Virus record (IMG/VR): IMGVR_UViG_3300025889_000220
Coordinates: 1-44,173 of that record
DNA length: 44,173 nucleotides
Origin: a virus
Reading direction: 5' to 3' (one strand)
Shown: piece after piece, positions 2,032-44,173 of the stretch
Layout of the letters: the number at the start of each line of letters is the position of its first letter
How positions within the stretch are numbered: the stretch's first letter is position 1
Position numbers and translations under genes: made by a program
Notes under the pieces: generated by a model
Databases searched by the model: none
What the model was told of the DNA's origin: nothing
The model's input: the letters and a program-made list of their open reading frames with translations, nothing else

Positions 2032-5000
2032 ATGGCTGAAGAAACAACCAGTATTGTCCGCGAAGCCCCGGAAATTGAGGCCTATAAGCTAGGCCTACTT
2101 TCTTCCGCAAAAGCTCTCGCAGACCAAGGGATAGAAATACCGCCATATATGGTGGCGGATATGACTGCTGCCCAGCTTACAGCAAGAGACATAGCTGAAG
2201 CGGGCATTGGTGGTTATCAACCTTATTTACAAGAAGCCGGTTACACCCTTGGTGATGCGCAACAAGCCATTGGGGCGACCATGGCTGGCGCTTTGCCTTA
2301 TCAACAAGATGCGGCAGCAGCGATGCAGGCCGGTCTTACAAACATTGCCCCTCAAGTAGAAGCCGCTCAAACCGGTATTACCGGAGGCATTGACTACGGC
2401 GCTGGAGCTACCGAAACAGCTACTAGCGCAATGAGTGACGCCGCCACAGGCGCACGTTTAGCGGCTACTGGCGGTCAAAATGCTTTAGGTACGGCAGCAA
2501 GCCGTATTCCGGGGATTTTAGAAGGTACGCAGACTGGAATGCAGTCTGCCTTGAACCAAGCTGCCGGAGCGGTAGAAACCGCAGGTCAAACAACTGCCTA
2601 TGACAATTTGGCAGCGCAACTAGCTGGCGAACAGGGGGCCACGGCCCAAGCACGAGCCCAAGCGGCTGCCGCTCAACAGGCTGGATATGACGCCGCAACA
2701 GGCGCACAAGCCGGACTTGCAAACGCGGCCCAACAAGCTACTGACGTAGCAGGTACTGGCATTGCTGGTTTAAACACCGCTGCTCAAAACGCTTTAAATG
2801 CTCGTAATATTGCAAACGCATTAGGCACCAATATTGAAAACGTTATTGGGGCTGCTCAAACAACCGCGTCAAACGCAGGAACCGCACTAGGACAAGCGGC
2901 TCAAAATGCACAAACCGCAGCAGGCGCTGCTGGTTTAGGTGCTCTGGGTTCTGCGGGTGCAAGCGCACAAGACAGTGCTGCTGCCATACAGGCGGCCCGT
3001 AACGCTGTTGCGGGAGCAGGCGAGAGACTAGCCGCCGCCGGACAAGGCGGATTAGGCGCAGCCGATGCTGCGAGTGCAGGTACTCTTCAGGCTATTAATC
3101 AAGCCCGTGGGATCGCTGGCGCAGGAGCAGATGCTCTAGCTGCCTCTGGTTTAGCGGGTGCAAATGCCGCAAATGTGGCTGCCCTGAATGCTCGTACCGG
3201 CGCTGCCGGAACTGGCGCAGGTCTAGCAGGCGTAAGTGACGCTGCACGTGCCGCGGCACAAGCTACTGGCACGGGTGTAGGCGGTGCGACTGACGCAGCG
3301 CGGCTCGCGGCCCTCCAAACAACGCAAGGTATTACAGGCACAAACGAAGCCGCACGTGCCGCCGCGCAACAAGGTATTGCTGGATTAGCTGGCGCTACTA
3401 CAGGTGCGCGTCAAACTGCAACTGGCGCATTAAGTGATTTATCAGGCGTTTCAGACGCTGCTCGTCAAGCAGCAGCAACGTCTGGAGCTGGTGGTATTGG
3501 TGCATACGAATCCGCAATGGGCGGTATTGGCGATGTAACCGCGGCTGCTCGTAACGTCGCTGCACAAGCAGGCACAGGTGGAAGAACCGCAGCACAACAA
3601 GCGGCTCTGGATACTCAAGGCGCTATTACTGGCGCTCGTGGTGTAGCGGGTCAAGCCGCCACTGGAGCCCAAGGTATCGCTGATTTAGCCCGCACGGGCG
3701 GAGCCGGTGCATACCAAAGTGCGTTGGCAGGCAGTCAGCAAGCGGTTCAAGGCGCTCGTGGTATTACTGGTCAGGCCGCGCAGGCTTTACAACAGGCTGG
3801 GGCCCTCGGAACACAGACTGCTCAACAAGGCATTGCCGGGTTAGCCGGTACGACCGGTATGTTTGATCCGGCTTCTACTGGTTCGTTTATGAACCAATAC
3901 GAAGATGCCGCAGTTCAACAAGCTCTGGCTGATATTGCCAGAGCTGGACAAATTCAAGGTAATCAACTGGCCTCACAAGCGGTTGGTGCCGGAGCCTTTG
4001 GTGGCTCACGTCAAGCCGTTGCAGAAGCAGAGCTTGCACGTAACATTCTCGAACAACAAGGCCGTACTGCCGCAGGAATGCGTCAGGCTGGCTATGAAAG
4101 TGCCGCACAACGCGCACAACAAGCCTTTGAAGCGCAGCAAGGCCGTGCCCAACAAGCGGCACAGCTTACCGGCGCTTTGGGTGCGCAAGGCTCGCAAGCA
4201 GGACTTCAAGCAGCTCAAGCGGCGGGCCAACTCGGTCTGTCCGCAGAGCAATTGGCGGCAGCTCAAGCTGGCCAGTTAGGTCAGCTTGGCATGTCCGCGG
4301 AACAGTTAGCTGCTCAAACAGGTCTTTCCGCCGAACAACTAGCCGCACAATTCGGCATGTCGGCGGAGGAATTAGCTGCACGGACCGCGCAACAGCAAGG
4401 ACAACTTGGTCTATCCGCCGAACAATTGGCGGCTCAGACAGGTATGTCCGCAGAGCAATTGGCTCAAGCAGGCTTGCTACAAGGCGGCCAGCTTGGTCTT
4501 TCAGCTTACGGTCAAGCGGGACAACAGGCGCTTTCTGCCGAACAAATTGCTGCACAAAACGCAGCACAAGCACGTCAAATGGGTTTGTCGGCAGAGCAGT
4601 TAGCTGCACAAAACGCGGCACAAGCGGGCCAGTTGGGCATGAGTGCCGAACAGTTGGCTCAAGCCGGTCTATTGCAGGCTGGTCAGCAACGTCTCAGTGC
4701 AGAGCAATTAGCGCAGGCTGGATCGTTGGGCGCTGGACAACAAGCGTTGTCCGCAGAACAGCTCGCCGCATCAAACCTTTCTCAGGCAGGACAACTGGGT
4801 CAATCGGCAGAACAGCTTGCCGGTCAGCTTGGTATGTCGGCTGCGCAACTTCAGGGCCAGCTTGCACAACAAGCGGCTCAGATGGGTATTTCTACCGAAC
4901 AACTTGCCGGTCAGCTCCTACAGCAACAAGCGCAAACAGGCCTTTCCGCAAATCAATTATTGGCTCAAACCGGTCAGCAAGCTGGTCAGTTAGGGCTTTC

Positions 5001-8723: not shown

Positions 8724-11700
8724 ATGGCTGACAATAACACTACTCCTACAAATGCCGAAGGTCTCTTTATTCCACGTGCAACGTTTGGTGCAGATGAATT
8801 TTCGGAAATAACAGAGGTTCTCAGATCATCCGGGCCGGTTGTTCCACAACTGGCCGAAATGATGGCAAATACCTTGGGCCGCGACCCACGGCTCCAAAAC
8901 AGAGGTGATAACTACCTTAACTACAACGCTTTGCGTATGGGCAATGCGGGTATTCTGCGTGATTTGGGTATAGAACCGGGGAAGAGCGTAACCGACGAGC
9001 AAATTATTGAGCTTTTTGGACGTGACACTCAGGGACGGCCTATCTCAGCAGGCACCGATTTCTGGGATGATTTCATTAGCGGCGCAAAACGAGAGGTTGC
9101 TCCCGCAGCGGTAGGTGCCGGTGGTTTTTACGCAGGCATGTTGTATGGAAATACGTTAGTTGCGGGGGTTCCTCCTGTAACACCTTGGACAGCCGCAGTT
9201 CGTATTGGTGTTCCGATACTCACAGGCCTTGGCGCGTCCATGTTTGGAGACTACGCCACTAGGGTTGCGCAAGACGCTTTATTTGGCGAAGAAGAATTAT
9301 ATGTACCCGGCACACGCGCTGCTTACGAAGCCGGTAAAGCTACCGCAGGCGGACTAGCCTTTTTACCAATGCCTTTCTTAATTTCAGGAAAGGTCAATCT
9401 TGGTTCTCGACTTGTATTAGACAACATAGAAGCCGGGGCAAAAGTTCCCCTTTCTACACGTTTTATACGCCAAGTTGAAAACAGTTTAGAACGGACAGGC
9501 TCCGCAGCACGGGATCAGGTAGGCCGAACTTTGACGGCGGAAGGATTGGCTGTTGCCGGGGGTGCATTTGCCGCAGGCGGGGCAGAAAAACTAGCTCCAG
9601 ACGACCCTTGGGTAAGGTTTGGTTTTGAAACAGCCGGGGCCGTTTCCGGAGGGTTAATTGGTGACCTAGCAGCCAAAAGAATACCGCAACTAACTGGTAT
9701 GGCTTGGGAAAAAGCTTTACAACTTTTTGATCGCACTAAAGCCGATAGCGCCGTCAACGCGACGGGAGGGCTAACAGAAGCCCAACAAATTGAGGGCGGA
9801 ACTTGGATTTACGATCAATTAAGGGCTAATAAAGAAGACCCAGAAAAAGTTATTGAGCTGCTTTTAACACCTGAGTTTCAAGATCAGTTAAGAGATGCAG
9901 ACGGCAATCTGATTCAGTTAGATTCCGCAACTTTAACCTCAAGCCCTACACTCCTACGCATGATTATGGATCGCGGGGGAGACACCGGGGTTTCTGCGAC
10001 TGGACAAAACAAAACCGAACAAGCAACAGAAGCTTTGCGTAGGCTTATTTTATTTACTTACGCAAAAGGAGACCGGCAAGCCCTTGGACAAATGTCTGAG
10101 CTGTACACCGGTCTTTGGGACGCCGATATTACACAACAACTGGACCAAGCAACTCAACGACTTAGGTCGGCAATGAGCCGCGTAGGGGAAGCTGGTGGAG
10201 AAAGTGTTGATAACCTTGAAGAAGCTAGGCGTCTGTATGAAGTTATTTCTAACCTGCAACAACGTTTAAGGGGTCAGGAAAGAACCCTTTGGCGACGCGT
10301 TCCACGCGACGTGGAACTTACGACGTTCAATGTACCAGATGGACAAGGTGGTTTTACTGAGTCGAATACGCCGAATTTCATAACCGCGTGGCGCGACTTA
10401 ACCGATTTAGACGAAAACGCAAGAAACGTTTTGCTGCGAAACGCTGATCTTCGTGAGATGGACGCGTATGTAAATAGAGTGTCCACAGACCTAGGAATAA
10501 ATCCAAATACACCTGCACCGCGTCAACTTAGAGAAGTAGGAGCTTTTAACACCGCTCGAAACAAGCTCGAAGGCACACCTTTCGGTATTACTTTTGATGA
10601 TATTGTTAAGCGAACGGAAGGTTTGCCAGAAGCTGAACAGATTGCAGCCTTACGTCGAGAAGCGGATGGCATGACCGCAGGCGGTGCGAGACTAGATCAA
10701 CGTCAGCGAGATTATGTGGCGGCGCTAAATGCGCGGGCCAACATGATTACTGCCCAAGCACAACAAACAGCGATGGACGGGACGCCTGCCCCTAGTGGCG
10801 GTATTTCAATACGATCTTTGATTGATATGCGTAGTGTAGCTTTGGACGCCGGTCGCGCCTTGGCAGCAGATGGGCGTAGTAATCAAGCGCGTGTAGCTTA
10901 TGAATTTGCAGACGCGATTTTAAAAGACTTGGAGTCTATCCCTGCTGGATCAGTCAGCGCAGAATATGACAATGCAAGAGCTTTTTCACGCGCCTACAAT
11001 GACGTGTTTACAAGAAGTTTTGCAGGCGATGTTTTGGGAACCAGTCGAGACGGCGCACCGCGCATTCCTGTTGAGGTGCTTAGAGACCGTTTATTTAGAG
11101 GCGACGCCGGTTATCTCCGTGCGCAGCAACTAGACCTGATTTCTCAAACACAGTTTGGTACGTCTCTAACCAATATGTTACAAGGAGACGCCCGCGAAGC
11201 AGGTCAAGCCTTGTTGACAAGCGCCCAAGAAGCGGGAGTCATTGATCCGCGTACTCAGATGCTAGATAGACGAGCTTTCAATAGCTGGTTTACCGCAAAC
11301 GAAAATGCAATTGATGCCATACCCGGTTTGCGCACTCAATTGACCGACATGTACAACGATAACGCTACTATCCGTGGCGCTTCTGAAAATTTGTTGAGAA
11401 GCTTGCGTTCTGAAGTTTTGAACCCGGACGGCACTTTAAGCACCAGCGCCCTTGAAACTTGGATGCGTAAAGACCAGAACCAACGGTTGTTGGAATCCAT
11501 GCCTGCGCTGCGAGCTGATTTAGAAAACATACCTATAGCTCGACATCTTTTGGAAGACACTAAAAGAGAAACAACTGAATTAGCTGCCAGTCGTAGGGAC
11601 GGTGAGCTGTCTCTTTACGAACTGCTGCCGGACAAAACGCAAAATCCAACCACACAAGTATCCCTTGCGTTGTCTTTGGATAACCCCCGTCCGTTCAATG

Positions 11701-12746
11701 AATTAAACAGGCTGTGGGAATTCATTGAAAATGTTGGTGAAGGCGGGTTTACCGTTACACAAGGACCGAACAGAGGCAAAACGTATAGCAGAGAAGATTT
11801 GGTGAACGGCTTCCGAACGGCCATCATGGAGTCTGTTTTTAACCGTCAAGGTGAAAACGGACCTATCTTCAATGTTGGTGGCGCTTTCAATACGTTGTTT
11901 GAGGCTCATCCTAACTCTTCTGCTAACATTCGCTTATCCGAATGGATGCAAGAAAAGGGAATTATGTCGTCAGAGGAGATTGGCCGCACACGACAATTGC
12001 TCAGACGTATGGCTGAAATACAAGCATTTGCGGCACGTGGCCGGGCTGGAGATACCGAAGGTTATATTCAACAAGTAGGTCCTCTATTCGCTCTTGTTAC
12101 AAGAATTTCTGGTTCAGAGATGGGTGCTGGTGTCCAATCTGTAATGAGTGGAAGCAACCAAAGCTTGATCGCACGACAAGCTGGTTCGCAGTATGCTCAG
12201 ACGATTGTAAATAAATATTTATCAGAACTTCCTGCCAGCTTGCGGATGGACGTTATTGAAACATTAATCAACGATCCGCAGTTACTCGCAACTGCCCTCA
12301 AGAAAGTTCACGATACCAGAACGCAAGGTGCTTCTCATCTTTCGCCAGAAGGAACGAGAATCATGACTCGACTGGTCCAAGGCCTAGTTGATAACGGATT
12401 GATGAGCAGCATTCGCCGGACCGCCGGACCGACAGAAAGGTTAGGTTCGGAAATGATTGACCAATTCGGTGATTACATTCAAGATTCTGTGAGTGAAGAA
12501 GAGCAAACGCCTCCTCCACCACAGAACGTACCGCCGTCAAACCAACAAGGTTCACTTAATCCAAATGTTATTCCGTCTCCCACACCGAATAACGTTGGAC
12601 CTGCGCCTAGTCCGATTAATACTGCCGCAGCCCCACAGGTTGCACCCATACAGAGTTCAGGTCCTGTAGATCGGACTAGGTACGCAGCTTTATTCCCAGA
12701 AGACCGTGATTTGGTCGGTATTATGAGCTTGAGTGGAGCGTCTTAA
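8724..12746 (+). CDS. Very large probable internal virion protein (1340 aa)
   Basis: The ATG follows AAGAGGTAGC, a plausible ribosome site. The N-terminal 300 residues include hydrophobic Gly/Ala-rich stretches (about 115-170, 205-225 and 265-310) that could insert in membrane. The rest is mostly charged and helical, and the last 90 residues are rich in Pro, Asn and Gln. Size, position at the end of the late operon and composition recall the large internal ejection proteins of short-tailed phages, but no catalytic motif such as a lytic transglycosylase could be assigned. The stop overlaps the next ATG (TAATG). Confidence 0.6.
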   Translation: MADNNTTPTNAEGLFIPRATFGADEFSEITEVLRSSGPVVPQLAEMMANTLGRDPRLQNRGDNYLNYNALRMGNAGILRDLGIEPGKSVTDEQIIELFGRDTQGRPISAGTDFWDDFISGAKREVAPAAVGAGGFYAGMLYGNTLVAGVPPVTPWTAAVRIGVPILTGLGASMFGDYATRVAQDALFGEEELYVPGTRAAYEAGKATAGGLAFLPMPFLISGKVNLGSRLVLDNIEAGAKVPLSTRFIRQVENSLERTGSAARDQVGRTLTAEGLAVAGGAFAAGGAEKLAPDDPWVRFGFETAGAVSGGLIGDLAAKRIPQLTGMAWEKALQLFDRTKADSAVNATGGLTEAQQIEGGTWIYDQLRANKEDPEKVIELLLTPEFQDQLRDADGNLIQLDSATLTSSPTLLRMIMDRGGDTGVSATGQNKTEQATEALRRLILFTYAKGDRQALGQMSELYTGLWDADITQQLDQATQRLRSAMSRVGEAGGESVDNLEEARRLYEVISNLQQRLRGQERTLWRRVPRDVELTTFNVPDGQGGFTESNTPNFITAWRDLTDLDENARNVLLRNADLREMDAYVNRVSTDLGINPNTPAPRQLREVGAFNTARNKLEGTPFGITFDDIVKRTEGLPEAEQIAALRREADGMTAGGARLDQRQRDYVAALNARANMITAQAQQTAMDGTPAPSGGISIRSLIDMRSVALDAGRALAADGRSNQARVAYEFADAILKDLESIPAGSVSAEYDNARAFSRAYNDVFTRSFAGDVLGTSRDGAPRIPVEVLRDRLFRGDAGYLRAQQLDLISQTQFGTSLTNMLQGDAREAGQALLTSAQEAGVIDPRTQMLDRRAFNSWFTANENAIDAIPGLRTQLTDMYNDNATIRGASENLLRSLRSEVLNPDGTLSTSALETWMRKDQNQRLLESMPALRADLENIPIARHLLEDTKRETTELAASRRDGELSLYELLPDKTQNPTTQVSLALSLDNPRPFNELNRLWEFIENVGEGGFTVTQGPNRGKTYSREDLVNGFRTAIMESVFNRQGENGPIFNVGGAFNTLFEAHPNSSANIRLSEWMQEKGIMSSEEIGRTRQLLRRMAEIQAFAARGRAGDTEGYIQQVGPLFALVTRISGSEMGAGVQSVMSGSNQSLIARQAGSQYAQTIVNKYLSELPASLRMDVIETLINDPQLLATALKKVHDTRTQGASHLSPEGTRIMTRLVQGLVDNGLMSSIRRTAGPTERLGSEMIDQFGDYIQDSVSEEEQTPPPPQNVPPSNQQGSLNPNVIPSPTPNNVGPAPSPINTAAAPQVAPIQSSGPVDRTRYAALFPEDRDLVGIMSLSGAS

Positions 12747-13648
12747 TGTCCATTCTTACTGAATTTACCGGCAGCCCTTACTACACCCGCGAAGAGCTTG
12801 CGAAGCTCAACAACGCTGACTGGGCCAAGGACCAAGCAGAATATGACGCGTACCACGCCGCAACGACGGCAAAAGCAAAGCGTCGAGCCCGCGCAGAAAA
12901 CATGGCGGTTCAAACCGCAATAGGTTCGGGTTATGCCGGTGTTCAACAAGGTGGCACAGACGCCATCGTAAGTTTGGGTGGCCGCGGTGGAAGGACCAGT
13001 GGCGGCATTGCAGGATTAGCCGGATTAGCCGGAACGGGCAGCCCCGTAGGCTATTCTTCATCAGGGGGTGGTAGCAGCACCGAAAACACTAACCCCGGCG
13101 ATAAAAACCCCGGTGACCGCGTTGATCCCGGCGTAATTACAAGAGCGGAGGGCGGCGTAGTGCCTTACATACAGTATATGCAGGAAGGTGGTTCTATTAC
13201 TTCGCCGTATGCGGACCCGATGTCTAATGATTTAAACGAAAAAGTAATGTATGGGACAATGCCGGTGCGCAGGGAGCCGATCAAATCGGACCCCATGCCG
13301 ATGCTCGCGGGCCCTCAACCTCAACAAGGGGTAGGAGGCTTGTTCGAGCAAATCCACCAGCAGTTTGGCATGATGCAATCGTCGCCACTCAGGGTATATC
13401 AGAACTATCTAATGCAAACCTACGCGCAACCAGAAATGCAACAGCAGCAGCAAAAGGTAGATCATTTCTTAGACTTGGTTGACCAAGCAGAACGCGCTCA
13501 TTTCGGCGCAGAACAAAGCTACGGCTTTGGGGGCGGACCTATGATGCAGCAATATATGCCGCAGCCACAGGCCCAATTTGAACAACAAACGCCAATGGAT
13601 CGGGGGATTGTAGGAGGCCCAGCTATACCGCAGGCAACAACGTATTGA
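12746..13648 (+). CDS. Gly/Gln-rich structural protein with GG-YMQ-GG tag (300 aa)
   Basis: Translation is coupled to the upstream gene through TAATG. Residues 1-60 are charged and helical and resemble a small folded head. A Gly/Ser-rich linker follows, then EGGVVPYIQYMQEGG near residues 134-148, which is the clearest copy of the tag also found in the 6072, 31791 and 35149 genes. The C-terminal third is rich in Gln, Met and Pro. No known domain was recognised. It is probably a virion-associated protein. Confidence 0.6.
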   Translation: MSILTEFTGSPYYTREELAKLNNADWAKDQAEYDAYHAATTAKAKRRARAENMAVQTAIGSGYAGVQQGGTDAIVSLGGRGGRTSGGIAGLAGLAGTGSPVGYSSSGGGSSTENTNPGDKNPGDRVDPGVITRAEGGVVPYIQYMQEGGSITSPYADPMSNDLNEKVMYGTMPVRREPIKSDPMPMLAGPQPQQGVGGLFEQIHQQFGMMQSSPLRVYQNYLMQTYAQPEMQQQQQKVDHFLDLVDQAERAHFGAEQSYGFGGGPMMQQYMPQPQAQFEQQTPMDRGIVGGPAIPQATTY

Positions 13649-13657
13649 TTATGAAAA

Positions 13658-14056
13658 ATGGCAGAGATCAGTGATGACACACGGGTCGAGATACCGCTAA
13701 GAAATCTCGTAGCTTTGGCCGCAGGACTTGTTATGGCGACCACGGCTTACGTTACCTTAAACTCCAGAATAACCACTGTCGAGCATGGCCTCGAAATGAG
13801 CGACAGAACCATAAAGGACAACGCCTCATTTGTTCGCGAGTGGCCTTTAGGCTTAAGAGGCGCTTTACCAGACGATCTAATTCAAAACGCCAAAATTATG
13901 GCGTTAGAAGAAAAAGTGCAAGAAATCCAAGAACTGAAACGCGAAATGCGGGTCATGGAAATAGAACTTGGGCGGCTAAGAAGCCAGACCGAAACCCAAG
14001 AAGAGAAAATAGAGACCCTTTTCGAGCTTTGGAATAATCAAAAAATAGGAATTTAA
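13658..14056 (+). CDS. Membrane-anchored coiled-coil protein (132 aa)
   Basis: A short charged N-terminus is followed by one hydrophobic segment at about residues 14-36 (NLVALAAGLVMATTAYVTL). A long helical tail with heptad-like spacing follows at about 85-127. This type I/II membrane plus coiled-coil layout occurs in i-spanins and in other small phage envelope proteins. No lipoprotein partner is embedded or adjacent, so a spanin role is not claimed. It is the last gene of the plus-strand late block and ends 20 bases before the convergent helicase gene. Confidence 0.6.
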   Translation: MAEISDDTRVEIPLRNLVALAAGLVMATTAYVTLNSRITTVEHGLEMSDRTIKDNASFVREWPLGLRGALPDDLIQNAKIMALEEKVQEIQELKREMRVMEIELGRLRSQTETQEEKIETLFELWNNQKIGI

Positions 14057-15627: not shown

Positions 15628-16209
15628 ATGAGTGACCTAACCGACTTGATGGAGCAGGATTTTGAACAAAATCTCGCAACGTCCATCGACAAAATCGACC
15701 AGCAAGGCCTAACTTCGGTGGCTGCGTTGGCCCGAACAATCCGAGACAAAGAAGTGCGGATCGAATCTCTTGAGGCTGAACTCAAGGAGGAGAAGAAGGC
15801 GCTTATAAAGTTAACGGATGAAGAGATGCCCGCAATGCTGGCAGAAATTGGGTTGTCATCGTTTGCCTTAGACGACGGTTCTACCGTTGATATTAAGCAA
15901 ACGTATGGTGCCTCAATCCTCGTAGACAATCGTCCACAAGCCTATGAATGGCTACGCGACCATGGGTACGACGACATTATCAAGAATACTGTCGCCTGCC
16001 AGTTTGGTCGTGGAGAAGACGATCTAGCAAGCGCCTTTGCTGCTTTTGCGCAGAAGCAGGGGTATGTTCCAGAGCAAAAAACAGAAATACACCCGCAGAC
16101 ACTACGGGCTTTTGTCAAAGAGCGTGTAGAAAACGGGGAGGAGTTTCCTATGGAGCTTTTCGGAGCATGGGTTGGTCAACGCGCAGTTATCAAGAGAGGT
16201 AAGAAATGA
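15628..16209 (+). CDS. Conserved phage early protein with N-terminal coiled coil (193 aa)
   Basis: First gene of the replication operon, with ribosome site GACAGGAG seven bases before ATG. Residues about 40-68 form a charged coiled coil, followed by a compact domain with the phrases WLRDHGYDDIIKNTV and QFGRGEDD. The layout resembles an unnamed family common next to SSB and primase genes in phages. No catalytic motif is visible. A role with single-stranded DNA or recombination is suggested only by context. The stop overlaps the next gene by four bases (ATGA). Confidence 0.7.
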   Translation: MSDLTDLMEQDFEQNLATSIDKIDQQGLTSVAALARTIRDKEVRIESLEAELKEEKKALIKLTDEEMPAMLAEIGLSSFALDDGSTVDIKQTYGASILVDNRPQAYEWLRDHGYDDIIKNTVACQFGRGEDDLASAFAAFAQKQGYVPEQKTEIHPQTLRAFVKERVENGEEFPMELFGAWVGQRAVIKRGKK

Positions 16210-16976
16210 GTAATAAGCAAGTAGCCAAAGCTGGCGATAAAGAGATCGTAGCATTCGATCCAACGATGTTCGAGCAGGACGCCGGACGTGGAATGGAGAA
16301 CTTGGGACAGGAAGACCTCGCGCTTCCCTTCTTAAAGGTTCTGTCAGGAAACGATCCTGTCCTTGACGAAAACGAAACGGCTCGTAAGGGCGATATTTAC
16401 AACACCGTAACCGGGAGGGCTTACAAAGGTAAAGATGGCATTCGTGTTGTGCCGTGTGCTTACCAGCGTAGGTTCATCCAATGGGCTCCGCGTGGCAGCG
16501 GAACCGGTGCGCCTGTGGCAATTTACGAACCGGGTGAAGGCCGTCCTGAGACGCAACGCTCTGCCGACGACAACAAAGATTATGTTGTTGGAGGTAATGG
16601 CGAGTACATCGAAGAGACGCACCAGCATTTCGTCATCCTAATCAACGAGGATGGGTCTCATGAGACCGCTCTGATTGCCATGAAATCTACGCAGCTCAAG
16701 AAGTCGCGTAAGTGGAATAGCATGATGGCGTCTCGCAGCATGATGGGCAAGAACGGACCGTTTACTCCGCCACGCTTTTCACATGTCTACCACCTCAAGA
16801 CCATTGCGGAGGAAAACTCCAAAGGTTCTTGGCACGGGTGGGAAATGTCTTGTGAAGGCCCCATCGACGACGCAGCTCTTTACACACGAGCAAAGGGCTT
16901 CGCTGATAGTATCTCAGCAGGCGAGGTTGTTGTGAAACATACGGATGATGAAGAGGGCGGTTCCTCCGTTTTCTAA
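16206..16976 (+). CDS. Probable phage single-stranded DNA-binding-like protein
   Basis: A 256-residue protein with a beta-rich, Gly/aromatic-rich middle and an acidic tail (KHTDDEEGGSSVF) ending in Phe. Acidic tails with a terminal aromatic residue are typical of SSB proteins that recruit replication partners, as in T7 gp2.5 and bacterial SSB. It sits between a conserved early protein and the primase, start-coupled by ATGA, and is closed by a terminator. I do not see a diagnostic OB-fold signature, so the assignment rests on tail, length and position. Confidence 0.5.
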   Translation: MSNKQVAKAGDKEIVAFDPTMFEQDAGRGMENLGQEDLALPFLKVLSGNDPVLDENETARKGDIYNTVTGRAYKGKDGIRVVPCAYQRRFIQWAPRGSGTGAPVAIYEPGEGRPETQRSADDNKDYVVGGNGEYIEETHQHFVILINEDGSHETALIAMKSTQLKKSRKWNSMMASRSMMGKNGPFTPPRFSHVYHLKTIAEENSKGSWHGWEMSCEGPIDDAALYTRAKGFADSISAGEVVVKHTDDEEGGSSVF

Positions 16977-23817: not shown

Positions 23818-24294
23818 ATGAAAGAAAAACTCACTATTGACGAAGTAGCAGAGCTGGCACGGGTGTCAGTCCCTACGATCTATCGTCGCGTAAAACTGGG
23901 AGACTTCCCGAAACCCTGCAAGGTTCCAACGACCGCGACTCGCGGCCCAAAGAACGTCAACCGATGGGAACGTGCGGAAGTCATGGGATGGCTGTTAAAG
24001 GGCAAAGACCCACGCTGGATCAATCAACCCGTCAAGGACATTAAAGACTTGTGCGCTAAATTGGATAAAGCTCCAATTACCAGCGACGAGCTGTCCAAAG
24101 ACTTTCAGCCCACGATCCACGCTTTCTTTAAAGATGAACAATTGACGCCAGAAGATGCAGCTCGACGTGCGGACGTTTTCGACATTTACGATTTCGAGAA
24201 CGCTGAACCGCCGTCAAATACCAAAAAATACATCATCCAAGCCGCCATTGGAGGCATCTTAGCTGGCTTCCTGTGGGCCGTGTTTCATGGCTGA
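23818..24294 (+). CDS. AlpA-like HTH regulator with C-terminal membrane anchor
   Basis: Residues 1-62 have the winged-HTH pattern of AlpA/excisionase proteins: LTIDEVAELARVSVPTIYRRV, then GDFPKP, then WERAEVMGWL. Residues 63-130 are a linker with acidic parts. The last 22 residues, after NTKK, are IIQAAIGGILAGFLWAVFHG, a good single membrane helix. A DNA-binding domain tethered to membrane is unusual for this family, whose members are normally about 70 residues and soluble. It could localise phage DNA at the membrane or sense envelope state. The stop overlaps the next gene by eight bases. Confidence 0.75.
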   Translation: MKEKLTIDEVAELARVSVPTIYRRVKLGDFPKPCKVPTTATRGPKNVNRWERAEVMGWLLKGKDPRWINQPVKDIKDLCAKLDKAPITSDELSKDFQPTIHAFFKDEQLTPEDAARRADVFDIYDFENAEPPSNTKKYIIQAAIGGILAGFLWAVFHG

Positions 24295-25375: not shown

Positions 25376-25787
25376 GATGGGGTGGCCCGACCTGCGTATT
25401 GGGGTTCACCAACAGAGTGTCGGCGCTTTAGGAGTGACGCAGGCCGGACCGAAGCACGATTATCGCGGATCACGGCCCTTGGGGCAACGCAATGAACAAA
25501 CTATCTATTTATATAGAGCCAAAATTAAAATAATTATTTTTCATAAAAATAGCCGTAACCGGTGTAACCGCGTAACCTTGGCCTAAAATCCTTTGTATTA
25601 TATACACTTACAGAGTTACATAAGGTAATTAACCAAATGTAACGTAACCAATGTTTGTGTAACCAATAGAGGGCGTTCGGTCCTTAAGGGGGGCTGGCGA
25701 CGTTTTTTGAAAAAATATTTTTCTGGATACATATATATAAAGGCGCTATTTTATGGCAAACTATCTTGTAATAACTGGGGAAATAGT
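25376..25787. other. Non-coding region before terS, possible origin, pac or regulatory site
   Basis: No convincing gene in about 410 bases; the frames present overlap known genes or lack ribosome sites. The left half is mixed composition. From about 25500 it becomes strongly AT-rich (runs such as AAAATTAAAATAATTATTTTT), then carries the GTAACC repeats, then a short G-rich tract (25687-25694) and a T/A-rich promoter-like stretch before the ATG at 25788. Confidence 0.6.
25555..25664 (+). repeat. Cluster of GTAAC(C) iteron-like repeats
   Basis: Same-strand copies lie at 25555-25560, 25564-25569, 25572-25577, 25639-25643 (GTAAC), 25644-25649 and 25659-25664. A GTTAC in the opposite sense is at about 25615. 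Three are spaced 8-9 bp apart. Clusters of short direct repeats next to AT-rich DNA are typical of replication origins or of terminase-recognition sites. Confidence 0.6.
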
Positions 25788-26417
25788 ATGGCCACCAAAT
25801 CAACCTCGAAAATGGTTGCAGTCCAGCCAAAAAAGAAAGTTGGACGACCAAAGGCAACGAAAGCGCAGCCACTGACTCGCAGGCAGGAATTGTTTGTGAA
25901 AGAGCTGGTTTCAAAAGATGGCCAAATAACTATGCGGGAAGCTGCGATCAACGCGGGCTATCCTGCCTCCTCTGCACATACGAGAGCGTATGAACTAACC
26001 AACCCTCACATAAGCCCGCATGTTGTTGCAGCGATTCAAGCTTATCGTGCGGAGCTGGATGAAAAGTTTGGGGTAAACTACCAAAGACACCTGAGAGACT
26101 TGCAAGTCATTAGAGATATGGCTTTGCAAAACGGTGCCTATTCGGCAGCCGTGCAGGCAGAATACCGGCGGGGGCAAGCGCAGGGCGATATTTATGTGAG
26201 TAAAAGCGAAATACGCCATGGCAGCATTGATTCGATGAGCAAAGAAGAAGTGCTGAAGGCGTTGCAGGAGATAAAGCAAACCTATGCCCCGATCACTATC
26301 GACGTTACTCCCGAAGGAGAGAGCAATTCCCAGAACCGCGACAAAGCGCGAAGCCGACTTTTGGCGCACGATGAAGACGGGGATGGAGAAGAGCGACAGG
26401 AATCTAAAGTACACTAG
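25788..26417 (+). CDS. terS: Terminase small subunit
   Basis: Start at ATG 25788 after ACTGGGGAAATAGT; the frame runs further upstream but through AT-rich promoter-like DNA. The 209-residue protein has a basic N-terminus with an AT-hook-like KVGRPKAT (about residues 17-25). A TerS-type HTH follows at about 30-72 (LTRRQELFVKELV, REAAINAGYP, SAHTRAYELTNP), then helical oligomerisation segments and an acidic tail that would contact TerL. It would bind the packaging site and start genome packaging. TerL is almost 4 kb downstream, separated by a cargo block, instead of adjacent. Confidence 0.82.
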   Translation: MATKSTSKMVAVQPKKKVGRPKATKAQPLTRRQELFVKELVSKDGQITMREAAINAGYPASSAHTRAYELTNPHISPHVVAAIQAYRAELDEKFGVNYQRHLRDLQVIRDMALQNGAYSAAVQAEYRRGQAQGDIYVSKSEIRHGSIDSMSKEEVLKALQEIKQTYAPITIDVTPEGESNSQNRDKARSRLLAHDEDGDGEERQESKVH

Positions 26418-29337: not shown

Positions 29338-29745
29338 ATGCAAACTTTAAACATCAGACCCAGCGATCTTTTATTGGATCGCGTTTTAAACCCAACCCGC
29401 GACGCTGACATTGGCGGCGCTCGCCCGGCGGACATTATCGAAGCTTGCGGGATTATTCCCGACCTTTTCTTGGCTGGATGCCTTGAAGCGAAAGCCGACC
29501 CGGTAACGCTCGACGCGGTGGCCGATGCAATCGACGAAGCCTACCAGTTCGGCGGCTTTCGTTATCCGTTCGGCGGGACGATAACCGACGCGGGCGTGTA
29601 TCAATCCAGCCACGACGAAGACCCCGACTTGCCACCGTTGGCCCGGTTTACCTTTGAGGGTTTCGAGTGTTTCGTTTACCGGTACGGGATAACCGCAATT
29701 CGCGACCGGGAGACGCGCCAGACCAAAATAGCCCGGCTCGATTAA
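29338..29745 (+). CDS. Accessory protein of unknown function (135 aa)
   Basis: Has its own promoter and an ACGGAG ribosome site, and ends before its own terminator, so it is a single-gene unit. It is acidic with a short helical segment (DAVADAIDEAYQFGGF) and later strands (RFTFEGFECFVYRYGITAIRDRETRQ). GC-rich like the rest of the cargo block. No family recognised. Confidence 0.6.
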   Translation: MQTLNIRPSDLLLDRVLNPTRDADIGGARPADIIEACGIIPDLFLAGCLEAKADPVTLDAVADAIDEAYQFGGFRYPFGGTITDAGVYQSSHDEDPDLPPLARFTFEGFECFVYRYGITAIRDRETRQTKIARLD

Positions 29746-29764
29746 AACCAGCCCGGCCACGATC

Positions 29765-29792
29765 AAAGCCCGCCACGTGCGGGCTTTTTTTT
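29765..29792 (+). terminator. Rho-independent terminator
   Basis: AAAGCCCGC, loop CACGT, GCGGGCTTT, followed by TTTTT. Ends the cargo block genes. Confidence 0.92.
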
Positions 29793-30175
29793 GCGCCGTG
29801 TTTCGCAGTTAAACAAGCCGGGCCCTGCCCCGCGGGCCCAGCCCCAAACTTACCGGGCCGCGGGCGGCTGGCCGGTGGCCGTTATCCCCGGCCCCCGGTG
29901 CCCGGTTCCCGAACCCCAGCCGGTGCCAGTTATCCGCCGCCCGGTGCCGCCGGATCGTGGACGCCGGGCCGCTGGCTGGAAGTTAAAACAAACGCACCGC
30001 GCACCGATGGCCGCGGGCCGTGATCCCAGCCGGTGGAAATTGCCCAGGGTCCCCCGGATATCGGGTCAAGAACCGGGGAACGCGAGCCGAAAACCGACGA
30101 GCAGCGCCCACGCCCCCGGCGCGTGTCACGACGGCTAGGGCCATGTTTCGCGCAAATATTCAGCAGTGAAATAGA
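29793..30175. other. GC-rich non-coding stretch before the terL leader
   Basis: About 380 bases rich in CCGG, GCCCGG and CCCCGG words. Frames exist on the plus strand, but they encode only Pro/Arg-rich text forced by composition, begin at poor starts and lack ribosome sites. I see no tRNA. It may be a packaging or replication site, or a decayed insert. Composition changes sharply to AT-rich at about 30160. Confidence 0.5.
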
Positions 30176-30208
30176 ATGGACTTTAACTGTCTTATATTTG
30201 CGGTTAAA

Positions 30209-30220
30209 ATCGCATATATT
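30209..30220 (+). promoter_or_regulatory. Probable -10 region of the terL promoter
   Basis: ATCGCAT (30209-30215) runs into TATATT (30215-30220), in an AT-rich stretch between GC-rich DNA and the parS-like sites. No good -35 box stands out, so it may need an activator. Confidence 0.4.
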
Positions 30221-30228
30221 ATGGTGTA

Positions 30229-30244
30229 TGTTTCACGTGAAACA
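30229..30244. promoter_or_regulatory. parS-like ParB-binding site 1
   Basis: TGTTTCACGTGAAACA, a perfect 16-bp palindrome identical to the canonical chromosomal parS consensus bound by ParB. It extends to an 18-bp palindrome (30228-30245). It lies in the leader between the likely terL promoter and the terL start. No parA or parB gene is visible in the window, so the host ParB would be the expected ligand. Confidence 0.85.
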
Positions 30245-30252
30245 TCGAATAT

Positions 30253-30268
30253 TGTTCCACGTGGAACA
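30253..30268. promoter_or_regulatory. parS-like ParB-binding site 2
   Basis: TGTTCCACGTGGAACA, also a perfect 16-bp palindrome, differing from site 1 only by the symmetric pair T/A to C/G. The centre is 24 bp from that of site 1. Compensated change on both arms shows selection for symmetry. Confidence 0.85.
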
Positions 30269-30305
30269 TTGAAAACTGCGTGTGAAAAATTAACTAGGGG
30301 CCCCC

Positions 30306-32690: not shown

Positions 32691-32698
32691 GAGTGGTC

Positions 32699-35152
32699 AT
32701 GGCAAACGGTAAACCAAATGCAGGAATGATGGATCGAAATGTTCCATCGCAGCTCGACGAAGAAGATTTGAAAGCAGAAATTGAGCTGGAGCTTCCTGAC
32801 TCTCAGAACGACGTAATGGCAATGATTAATGCTGAAGACGTTGGTTCGATTGAGGTTACGCCGGAAGATGATGGCGGAGTCGTTATTGATTTTGATCCGC
32901 AAGATCAGCGCGGTAAAAGCAATGACTTCTACATGAACCTTGCGGAAGAAATACCAGACCGCGAACTAGGACGTATTTCTTCTGAGCTATTAGGAGAATT
33001 TGATGCAAATAAGGCGTCTCGCCAAGACTGGGAAGAGGCTTATAGCCACGGTCTTGAACTACTTGGATTCACTTATGAGGAAAGGACGCAGCCTTTTAGA
33101 GGGGCTTCGGGCGTCACTCATCCGCTTTTGGCAGAGGCTGCAACGCAGTTCCAAGCTCAAGCGTTTAATGAACTTCTTCCACCTACAGGCCCTGTACGCA
33201 CTATCGTCATGGGTTCAGAAACGCGTGAAAAGGTTGCTCAAGCGCAACGCGTAAAACAATTTATGAACTACTACATCACGAATGTGATGGAAGAGTACAC
33301 ACCAGATATGGACCAGATGCTGTTTTATTTGCCTCTGGCCGGTTCAACATTTAAGAAAACTTACTACGATGAAACGCTTGGACGCGCTGTATCCAAGTTT
33401 GTGCCTGCGGAGAACTTGATTGTTCCTTATGAGACCGCGGACCTCGAAACATGCCCTAACATTACGCAAGTTGTGCGTATGCCTCTTAATGATCTGCGCA
33501 AACGACAGATTGCGGGGCTATATTTAGATGTTGAAGTTATCCCTGCACAGAAAGATTTGGACGGGGTAACAGAAGAACTCGACAAGATTGAAGGCATTGA
33601 ACCTAGTCAGATTGACTATGATTGCACAATCTTGGAAGTACATGCCGATCTTGACTTAGAAGGTTACGAAGACCTTGATTCAGACGGCGAGCCTACCGGA
33701 ATTAGGATTCCGTATATTGTAACCATCTCTGAAGATAACGGTCAGATTCTATCTATCCGTCGTAATTATCGCGAAGACGATCCCCTTAAGAAGAAAATCC
33801 AATATTTCACCCATTACAAGTTCCTACCGGGCTTCGGGTTCTATGGTTTGGGGTTGATTCACACCATTGGCGGTTTGTCACGAACCGCTACGGCGGCACT
33901 GCGACAGTTGATCGACGCTGGTACGTTGTCCAACCTCCCGGCGGGTTTCAAGGCCCGCGGACTACGGATCAGGGATGACGATGATCCGTTGCAGCCCGGA
34001 GAGTTCAGAGACGTGGACGCACCCGGAGGGGCTATTCGTGACAGCCTAATGCCGCTGCCGTTTAAGGGCCCCGATCAAACATTGTTTAATTTGTTGGGCT
34101 TTGTAGTACAGGCCGGTCAGCGTTTTGCGACGATCACGGACCTTCGTGTTGGTGAGGGCAATGAACAAGCAGCCGTGGGTACAACCATGGCAATGATGGA
34201 ACAAGGCTCACGGGTCATGAGCGCAGTGCATAAGAGATTGCACTATGCGATGCGTCAGGAGTTTAAGATTCTTGCGCGTGTGATGTCTGAGAGCTTGCCA
34301 CAGGAGTATCCGTACACGGTTCCCGGTGGCGATCAACGGATCATGGCACAGGACTTTGATGACCGTGTGGATGTTATCCCGGTTAGTAATCCGAATGTCT
34401 TTAGCCAAGCGCAGCGCATTATGCTTGCGCAGACTAAACTACAGCTCGCGACCCAAGCACCAGAAATTCACAACATGCACGAAGTGTTCCGTGACATGTA
34501 TGAAGCGTTGGGTGTTGCGGATGTAGACAGATTAATGAAGGCGATTCCGGCAGAGATTCCGGAGCCTCTTGATCCAGCGCAGGAGAACATTAATGCGTTG
34601 GATATGTTGCCATTGAAAGCGTTTGAGGGTCAGAACCATCAGGCGCACATCATGGCTCACTTGTTGTTTGGCACGTCACCCATGGTAGGTCAGATGCCTC
34701 CTGTGGCCATGGCGTTGCAAAAGCATGTGATGGAACACGTACAGCAAGCCGCAAGAGAACAAGCGGCGGTTGCTTATTTGCAGCAAGTTCAGCAGACAGG
34801 TCAGCCTGCGAGCGACGACGAGATGTTGCAGATCGAACAGCTTACGGCACAGTTTGTTGCCGAAGGTATGCAGCAGGTTAAGGAACTGTCTGGTCAGCTT
34901 TCTGGTCAGGGCGCTCCCGATCCGCTGGTACAGCTCAAAGAACAGGAGATTCAGCTCAAGGCACAGTCCGATCAAGCAGACAATCAGATCGACCAAGCAC
35001 GTGTTCAGTTGGAGGCTCAGAACCAAACGATGCGTTCGCAGCAATTCGATCAACGGTTGGCTTCGCAAGAACGTCAGACACAGGCGCGTATTCAGTCTGC
35101 GATGGAGCGCGAGCTGCTCAAGCAGCGTAACAACGGAGGTGCCCCACAATGA
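32699..35152 (+). CDS. Portal protein
   Basis: An 817-residue protein from ATG 32699, which has AGGAG five bases upstream; a GTG at 32693 overlaps that site and is rejected. After an acidic N-terminus comes the portal body, with YEERTQPFRGASGVTHPLL, PTGPVRTIV, FYLPLAGSTFKKTYYDE, VPAENLIVPY, GFYGLGLIHTIGG and TAALRQLIDAGTLSNLPAG. These are phrases of the large podovirus-type or marine-phage portals. The last 170 residues are a Gln-rich helix, perhaps the barrel or crown. It makes the dodecameric DNA channel and docks TerL. Confidence 0.85.
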   Translation: MANGKPNAGMMDRNVPSQLDEEDLKAEIELELPDSQNDVMAMINAEDVGSIEVTPEDDGGVVIDFDPQDQRGKSNDFYMNLAEEIPDRELGRISSELLGEFDANKASRQDWEEAYSHGLELLGFTYEERTQPFRGASGVTHPLLAEAATQFQAQAFNELLPPTGPVRTIVMGSETREKVAQAQRVKQFMNYYITNVMEEYTPDMDQMLFYLPLAGSTFKKTYYDETLGRAVSKFVPAENLIVPYETADLETCPNITQVVRMPLNDLRKRQIAGLYLDVEVIPAQKDLDGVTEELDKIEGIEPSQIDYDCTILEVHADLDLEGYEDLDSDGEPTGIRIPYIVTISEDNGQILSIRRNYREDDPLKKKIQYFTHYKFLPGFGFYGLGLIHTIGGLSRTATAALRQLIDAGTLSNLPAGFKARGLRIRDDDDPLQPGEFRDVDAPGGAIRDSLMPLPFKGPDQTLFNLLGFVVQAGQRFATITDLRVGEGNEQAAVGTTMAMMEQGSRVMSAVHKRLHYAMRQEFKILARVMSESLPQEYPYTVPGGDQRIMAQDFDDRVDVIPVSNPNVFSQAQRIMLAQTKLQLATQAPEIHNMHEVFRDMYEALGVADVDRLMKAIPAEIPEPLDPAQENINALDMLPLKAFEGQNHQAHIMAHLLFGTSPMVGQMPPVAMALQKHVMEHVQQAAREQAAVAYLQQVQQTGQPASDDEMLQIEQLTAQFVAEGMQQVKELSGQLSGQGAPDPLVQLKEQEIQLKAQSDQADNQIDQARVQLEAQNQTMRSQQFDQRLASQERQTQARIQSAMERELLKQRNNGGAPQ

Positions 35153-43290: not shown

Positions 43291-44173
43291 ATGGCTATTT
43301 CTCGCGCACAATTAGCGAAAGAGCTAGAACCCGGCCTTAATGCCTTGTTCGGGCTCGAATACAACCGTTACGAGAATGAGCATTCGGAAATCTTCGAGGA
43401 AGAGTCTTCGGACCGTGCCTTTGAAGAGGAAGTGATGCTCGGTGGGTTTTCCACGGCACCTGTTAAGAGTGAAGGCGGAGCCATCACTTTTGACGATGCG
43501 CAGGAAACTTACACTGCTCGTTACACTCATGAAACCATTGCGCTTGCTTTCTCTATTACTGAGGAGGCAATTGAAGACAATCTCTATGACCGTCTGGCAT
43601 CGCGCTACACCAAGGCTCTGGCCCGTTCTATGGCCCAGACCAAGCAGATCAAAGCTGCTGCTATCCTGAACAACGCGTTCACGGCTGGCTCTTCTGCGAT
43701 TGGCGACGGTGCAGCTCTTTGCTCCAACGCGCACCCTAGCCTCTCAGGCAACCAGTCAAACATTCTGGCAACTGCTGCGGACCTCAACGAGACTTCGCTT
43801 GAGCAGATGTTGATTGACATTGCTGGTTTGACTGACGAGCGTGGGCTTAAGATTGCTGTTCGCGGCATGAAGCTTATCATTCCGAAAGAGCTTCAGTTCA
43901 TCGCAGAGCGAGTTATTAACTCTAACCTGCGTCCGGGCACCGCAGACAACGACCTGAACGCCATGAAGTCTATGGGTATGCTCCCTGATGGTGCGGTAGT
44001 TAACCACTTCCTCACCGACACGGATGCGTTCTTCATTAAGACTGACGCGCCTAATGGTTTCAAATACTTCAACCGTTCGCCGATCAAGACGGCAATGGAA
44101 GGAGACTTTGACACTGGCAACATGCGCTTCAAGGCTCGCGAGCGTTACTCCTTCGGTGTATCCGACTGGCGTA
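43291..44173 (+). CDS. Major capsid protein (3' end beyond window)
   Basis: The open frame starts at ATG 43291 after AAGGAGGG and runs to the window edge without stop, so 294 codons are seen. The sequence follows the Mu gpT/HK97-like pattern: an N-terminal arm with KELEPGLNALFGLEYNRYENEHSEIFEEESSDRAFEEEVML, then SITEEAIEDNLYDRLASRYTKALARSMAQTK, and later RGMKLIIPKELQFIAERVINSNLRPGTADNDLNAMKSMGMLPDG. It forms the shell and is the likely client of the GroES-like protein. Confidence 0.88.
   Translation, partial: MAISRAQLAKELEPGLNALFGLEYNRYENEHSEIFEEESSDRAFEEEVMLGGFSTAPVKSEGGAITFDDAQETYTARYTHETIALAFSITEEAIEDNLYDRLASRYTKALARSMAQTKQIKAAAILNNAFTAGSSAIGDGAALCSNAHPSLSGNQSNILATAADLNETSLEQMLIDIAGLTDERGLKIAVRGMKLIIPKELQFIAERVINSNLRPGTADNDLNAMKSMGMLPDGAVVNHFLTDTDAFFIKTDAPNGFKYFNRSPIKTAMEGDFDTGNMRFKARERYSFGVSDWR

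Follow-up and report, generated by a model that had tools for sequence, protein, structure and literature searches.

ParB–parS is the segregation system of most bacteria. The virus record analysed here, called the window (G000; a 44,173-bp IMG/VR record that is classed linear and thus possibly a fragment), carries two copies of what looks like a bacterial parS site directly before its terminase gene (Table 1). This raises the question of what a phage gains from a centromere site of its host. An earlier note on this DNA had described two perfect 16-bp palindromes with centres 24 bp apart, and both sites proved to be exact. Based on its related TerL and the common gene order, we assign the window phage to the HTVC023P-type marine podovirus family, whose members have a mean genome size of 58.8 kb (PMC9599517). 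Its TerL is 56–64% identical to those of the pelagiphages HTVC027P and HTVC023P, 023Pt_psg01 and DSL-LC04. The gene order in the family is primase, UvrD-like helicase, PolA, terS, terL, portal, GroES, capsid, large virion proteins and SNF2-type helicase. The phage falls outside the phi29-like Salasmaviridae, as it has a phrog_38 TerL, a phrog_17 DNA polymerase and a 55–60 kb genome plan.

Table 1. Positions of the parS sites and neighbouring features in the window, and of parS in phi29-like phages.
Feature	Position	Strand	Remarks
Small HTH_17 protein	23818–24294		no known target
terS, terminase small subunit	25707–26417	+	phrog_51, E 3.6e-11; PF03592 just below cut-off
Sigma-70-like promoter, TTAACT-16-TAAAAT	30183–30210	+	promoter scan: 1 found vs 0.3 expected
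parS site 1, TGTTTCACGTGAAACA, T-type	30229–30244	none	exact parS palindrome
Inter-site spacer	30245–30252	none	8/8 columns variable among relatives
parS site 2, TGTTCCACGTGGAACA, C-type	30253–30268	none	exact parS palindrome
Shine-Dalgarno-like AGGGG before terL ATG	30296–30300	+	within conserved box 30295–30305
terL, terminase large subunit, 487 aa	30306–31769	+	phrog_38, E 3.4e-111
Portal protein	32693–35152	+	phrog_1216, E 8.7e-52
Major capsid protein, continues to window end	43291–44172	+	phrog_371, E 8.3e-22
parS of phi29-like phage L099	5525–5566 and 12130		
parS of phi29-like phage L402	8742–8776		

Both sites are exact matches to chromosomal-type parS, the 16-bp palindrome TGTTYCACGTGRAACA, and with its flanks the palindrome of site 1 extends perfectly to 18 bp (30228–30245). 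They are the sole parS matches in the window with at most one mismatch. With up to three mismatches there are four, against 0.53 expected, and four was reached by 0 of 100 shuffles. The sites indeed lie between a promoter and terL, as the earlier note had held. The promoter stretch (30183–30216) is invariant in 30 of 34 columns across the 12 lineages that bear the pair. The terL transcript would start near 30217, so that both parS would lie in its 5' leader, with sites 1 and 2 beginning at about +12 and +36, respectively. The cumulative GC skew of the window has no turning point at the parS sites. Upstream of the terL promoter is a GC-rich, apparently non-coding stretch (29745–30140), bounded by a predicted terminator (29765–29787) and a conserved GGGCCATGTTTC..CAAATATT element, and a packaging start might be located there.

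To what extent is the palindrome itself conserved? In the 12 lineages with paired sites, the parS bases show no variation other than at the symmetric positions 5 and 12 (30233/30240 in site 1 and 30257/30264 in site 2). These two positions always co-vary, with six T-A and six C-G at each site, which bears out the proposal that the symmetry is under selection. A T-type site is always paired with a C-type site, the order varying, and no T,T or C,C pair occurs; this may reflect repeat avoidance or breadth of ParB binding. An inverted two-site block as the source of the swapped order was rejected, as the spacers do not look reverse-complemented. In 144 non-redundant loci (1.29 Mb), exact parS occurs 50 times, whereas 599 of 600 permuted palindromes do not occur at all and the sole one that does, TGTYTCACGTGARACA, includes the parS sequence itself. 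Every other single-position symmetric variant of parS is likewise absent from the 1.29 Mb. The invariance across 12 lineages and the 50 sites against none in the controls indicate that the parS sequence is maintained by selection.

Such palindromes could also work as hairpins in the terL leader RNA instead of as DNA sites. The leader RNA folds at -25.7 kcal/mol, slightly better than shuffled sequences (z -2.15), and in this fold the two palindromes pair. However, a stem would tolerate compensatory changes at every pair as well as changes in the loop, whereas just the 5/12 pair varies here and the other symmetric variants are absent, and relatives have parS outside leaders. The hairpin reading was rejected on this pattern of variation, and we consider it exceedingly improbable.

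The earlier note reckoned that absence of the palindromes from close relatives would refute it, and this refutation did not materialise. To define close relatives, we took members at 80% TerL identity or above, of which dereplication at 98% TerL identity left 49, the window included; the relatives were selected without regard to the presence of parS. The terL leader contains one or two perfect parS in 29 of these, one has parS in an ORF before the portal gene instead, and the available sequence of the remaining 19 holds no perfect parS. Similarly, the 80 IMG/VR loci with the closest TerL mostly have one or two perfect parS some 40–80 bp before terL. On the TerL tree of the relatives, the presence of parS changes state at least 12 times, which means that sites in this family have been lost and regained, or relocated. 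No perfect parS is found in the cultured HTVC023P, nor in 023Pt_psg01 and DSL-LC04; together with the 19 close relatives, this shows that parS is dispensable. Some relatives retain the terL promoter without parS.

More distant members of the family carry perfect parS at other, non-homologous places. In some, the sites lie 1.5–5 kb upstream of terL and are mostly intergenic; others are found in frame inside ORFs near the portal gene, where they are translated as N-V-[SP]-R-[EG]-T and apparently occupy flexible linkers (e.g., SKPNVSRETVYQQPQPQPQ). In five near-complete genomes, 11 of 11 sites (one mismatched) fall between pol and the capsid gene, a region of about 40% of the genome, of which the major capsid gene is the far flank and within which terS lies. 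One record, G002, both starts and ends inside pol and is thus close to a whole genome. We further examined 164 parS-bearing IMG/VR stretches, of which 47 belong to this family (29 among the first 120 listed). None of these 47 loci has parS in the half with the virion-protein, primase and helicase genes, and the one that holds pol has its parS downstream of pol. As the sites move within a fixed region, selection appears to act for parS in the pol-to-capsid region and not for one regulatory position. Because the majority of records are fragmentary, a number of sites or genes may have gone undetected. Repeated GTGGGCGGGACCCACCC-like inverted repeats are found beside parS in one of the more distant lineages (L359, L366, L321, L368 and L126).

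A look-alike in HTVC027P (L084; CGTTTCACGTGAAACA at 16412) and its relatives was rejected as parS. It sits in an unannotated reading frame (16207–16499) that encodes SPHQIAFHVKHPDN, and as the synonymous third positions vary (CAC/CAT, GTG/GTA), it is best read as a coding coincidence. The site of G086, TGTTTCACGTGAAACG, has one mismatch to parS and may be a coincidence of the same kind.

The placement of the sites bears on the suggestion that they are a decoy, by which replicated phage genomes titrate host ParB and so halt chromosome segregation or cell division. With a perfect site or two per genome and many genome copies, phage sites would exceed the chromosomal ones in number, as MAGs contain just 1–5 sites, some of them on phage contigs. 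Yet for a decoy any position would do, while 47 of 47 family loci and the five near-complete genomes keep the pol-to-capsid placement, a confinement that a pure decoy does not predict. Moreover, most genomes hold merely 1–3 sites. We therefore retain the decoy as an unlikely explanation.

P1/N15-type plasmid prophages bring a ParA, a ParB and a parS of their own. The window phage resembles them in that phage DNA carries a ParB site, but own ParA and ParB genes were not found in its family. The window contains no ParB_N, HTH_ParB or ParA-type (PF13614) domain, in line with the earlier note, which saw no parA or parB there. Profile searches of 19 records detected ParB_N in just one, G003, as a divergent match within a 1056-aa frame. 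The family also showed no HTH_ParB (18 records), no PF13614 (13 records) and no integrase (18 records).

On the bacterial side, identity with the chromosomal ParB site was confirmed, as the same 16-mers are present beside parAB in bacterial MAGs. In a Maricaulis bin the 16-mer flanks mnmG, beside mnmE and parA-parB; in a Rhodospirillales bin it precedes parA-parB; and in a Rhodobacteraceae bin it flanks mnmG. These loci are ordinary chromosomal parS, which is no proof that these bacteria host the window phage. Host assignment via MAG bins was rejected because six contigs that bear relatives were placed in disagreeing bins of different phyla (Verrucomicrobia, Rhodobacteraceae, Maricaulis and Rhodospirillales).

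Host-type parS is not restricted to this family. The mirror-image palindrome, which has equal composition, was found in two IMG/VR stretches, against at least 120 for parS. When a 42-base query comprising both sites was run against 50,697 GenBank phage records, it gave 801 matches in 327 of them, and its mirror gave none. ParB_N is encoded in two of 47 other parS-bearing viral records. Phage phi29 (L399) has four perfect TGTTTCACGTGGAACA sites, at the end of gene 10 (10445), inside gene 15 (15903), right after gene 16 (17243) and in gene 17 (18760). One of these is within the endolysin gene (KNVSRGTSSTK) and one directly 3' of the packaging ATPase gene, and the phi29 feature table has no parB annotated. 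Two inoviruses of about 6 kb from rodent faeces, L400 (PQ006135.1) and L401 (PQ006097.1), contain six perfect TGTTTCACGTGAAACA each, several of them similarly placed and including a close pair, with no ParB gene annotated in either record. In two phi29-like phages, L099 and Glutamicibacter phage Voltaire (L402), a tail protein gene has tandem parS in its short leader, an arrangement like that of the pair before terL in the window. The unrelated phage L116, whose small terminase is of the Sf6 type, has five perfect parS between terS and terL (2657–3444). A 116.7-kb viral contig (L424) has twelve perfect parS within 5 kb (8906–13863). In the open-licence literature we found no report of lytic non-sporulating phages with host parS.

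Conceivably, the palindromes serve a phage regulator whose operator happens to match parS, and the window does encode a small HTH_17 protein. Against this, the motif is exactly that of chromosomal parS, its T/C variation is confined to a single symmetric position, and it is also found in unrelated phage families; the lack of HTH_ParB in the 18 records points the same way. A phage operator is thus very unlikely.

As many relatives keep parS in one part of genomes that apparently lack ParA and ParB genes, these viruses probably borrow the segregation machinery of their hosts. Host ParB very probably binds and loads at the phage sites; that the palindromes are kept for this purpose, as host-type parS that brings host ParB onto phage DNA, has in our estimate an even chance of being right. 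Host ParB would bind parS and then close into CTP-dependent clamps. These would slide across the neighbouring kilobases, so that a partition complex would cover the terS-terL-portal module. ParB that has loaded at parS spreads about 15 kb (PMC9242446), and spreading over 16 kb has been reported in V. cholerae (PMC7022226). As ParB spreads this far, one parS anywhere in the packaging and head module would give it wide reach, which fits sites that move within a fixed region.

What the phage gains is less certain. Phage genomes may be coupled to host ParA/SMC and thereby positioned, separated or condensed during replication and packaging, in parallel to phi29 and Spo0J; we give this gain slightly less than an even chance. 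A further gain, for which the case is more tentative, is that the clamps additionally hold back the late packaging operon for as long as replicated phage genomes do not outnumber host ParB. The most likely order thus has coupling to host partition and SMC first, late-gene timing second and the decoy third. The earlier note had suggested that host ParB is hijacked in a persistent state: the use of host ParB is favoured, but persistence is not, with no integrase in the 18 family records.

The same note had suggested a ParB-dependent switch on packaging. In this scheme, host ParB bound in the leader would block terL transcription, or keep the late operon silent, until ParB is titrated by replicated phage DNA. 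The sites at about +12 and +36 behind a conserved promoter could block terL transcription directly in the window lineage, and the tandem parS in the tail-gene leader of the unrelated phi29-like phages has a similar placement. In P. aeruginosa, genes next to parS3/parS4 are repressed by the ParB at these sites (PMC7022226), and KorB clamps exert silencing on promoters as far as 1.5 kb away (PMC11790492). KorB, of plasmid RK2, is a ParB-family CTPase clamp that loads nearby and represses promoters, which makes it a model for such timing; unlike the ParB considered here, it is plasmid-encoded and acts with KorA, and no such partner is known for the window phage. However, many relatives have parS away from any late promoter, several within coding sequence, and others have the promoter without parS. 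Moreover, genes near parS usually respond little in their expression to chromosomal ParB (PMC7022226), a finding that weakens the case for late-gene timing. As relatives keep perfect parS away from the terL leader, a terL switch is not the general function of the sites, although it may apply in the window lineage. We regard such a block as possible but somewhat unlikely. More doubtful still is the combined proposal that parS carriage is a widespread, repeatedly evolved phage strategy, shared by marine podoviruses, phi29-like phages, inoviruses and others, and that ParB clamps over the packaging module here act as a copy-number sensor that delays late genes or packaging until genome copies are sufficient in number.

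Host ParB loading, the reading that we prefer, is favoured by ParB spreading and by the precedents of phi29 with Spo0J and of the SGI1 parS mimics, which are the closest to the window. Host Spo0J, the ParB of B. subtilis, is involved in spore entrapment of phi29 DNA (Meijer et al. 2005, as cited in PMC9437464), which shows that host ParB can be of use to a virulent phage. Phage phi29 is a virulent podovirus whose perfect parS are partly in coding sequence and which has no annotated parB; the window phage and its family likewise have perfect host-type parS without a ParB of their own. The two phages are unrelated, however, and the known use of Spo0J is spore entrapment, whereas the window phage has a tandem pair in the terL leader and a different genome plan. 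The parS mimics of SGI1 bind the ParB of IncC plasmids and stabilise SGI1 (PMC10954446). This is likewise a mobile element with two copies of the centromere site of another replicon, whose ParB it uses; unlike the phage, it integrates, it hijacks a plasmid system and its use of the sites is proven by experiment, whereas the phage sites match chromosomal parS. Alphaproteobacterial phages carry CtrA-binding sites (PMC9437464), which are also sites for a host protein that are clustered in one genome part and arose independently in several lineages. CtrA differs in being a transcription factor that is read as a cell-cycle signal, whereas parS loads a partition clamp.

Phages with host centromere sites are a rare theme, and in the window family such sites are real and strongly selected. 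That selection keeps parS within one genome region, at times even in coding sequence, suggests repeated plugging of phages into ParB–parS. What was a single case linked to sporulation, that of phi29, thereby becomes a general question of what a lytic phage gains from host ParB. ParB ChIP and community surveys of parS will encounter phage DNA.
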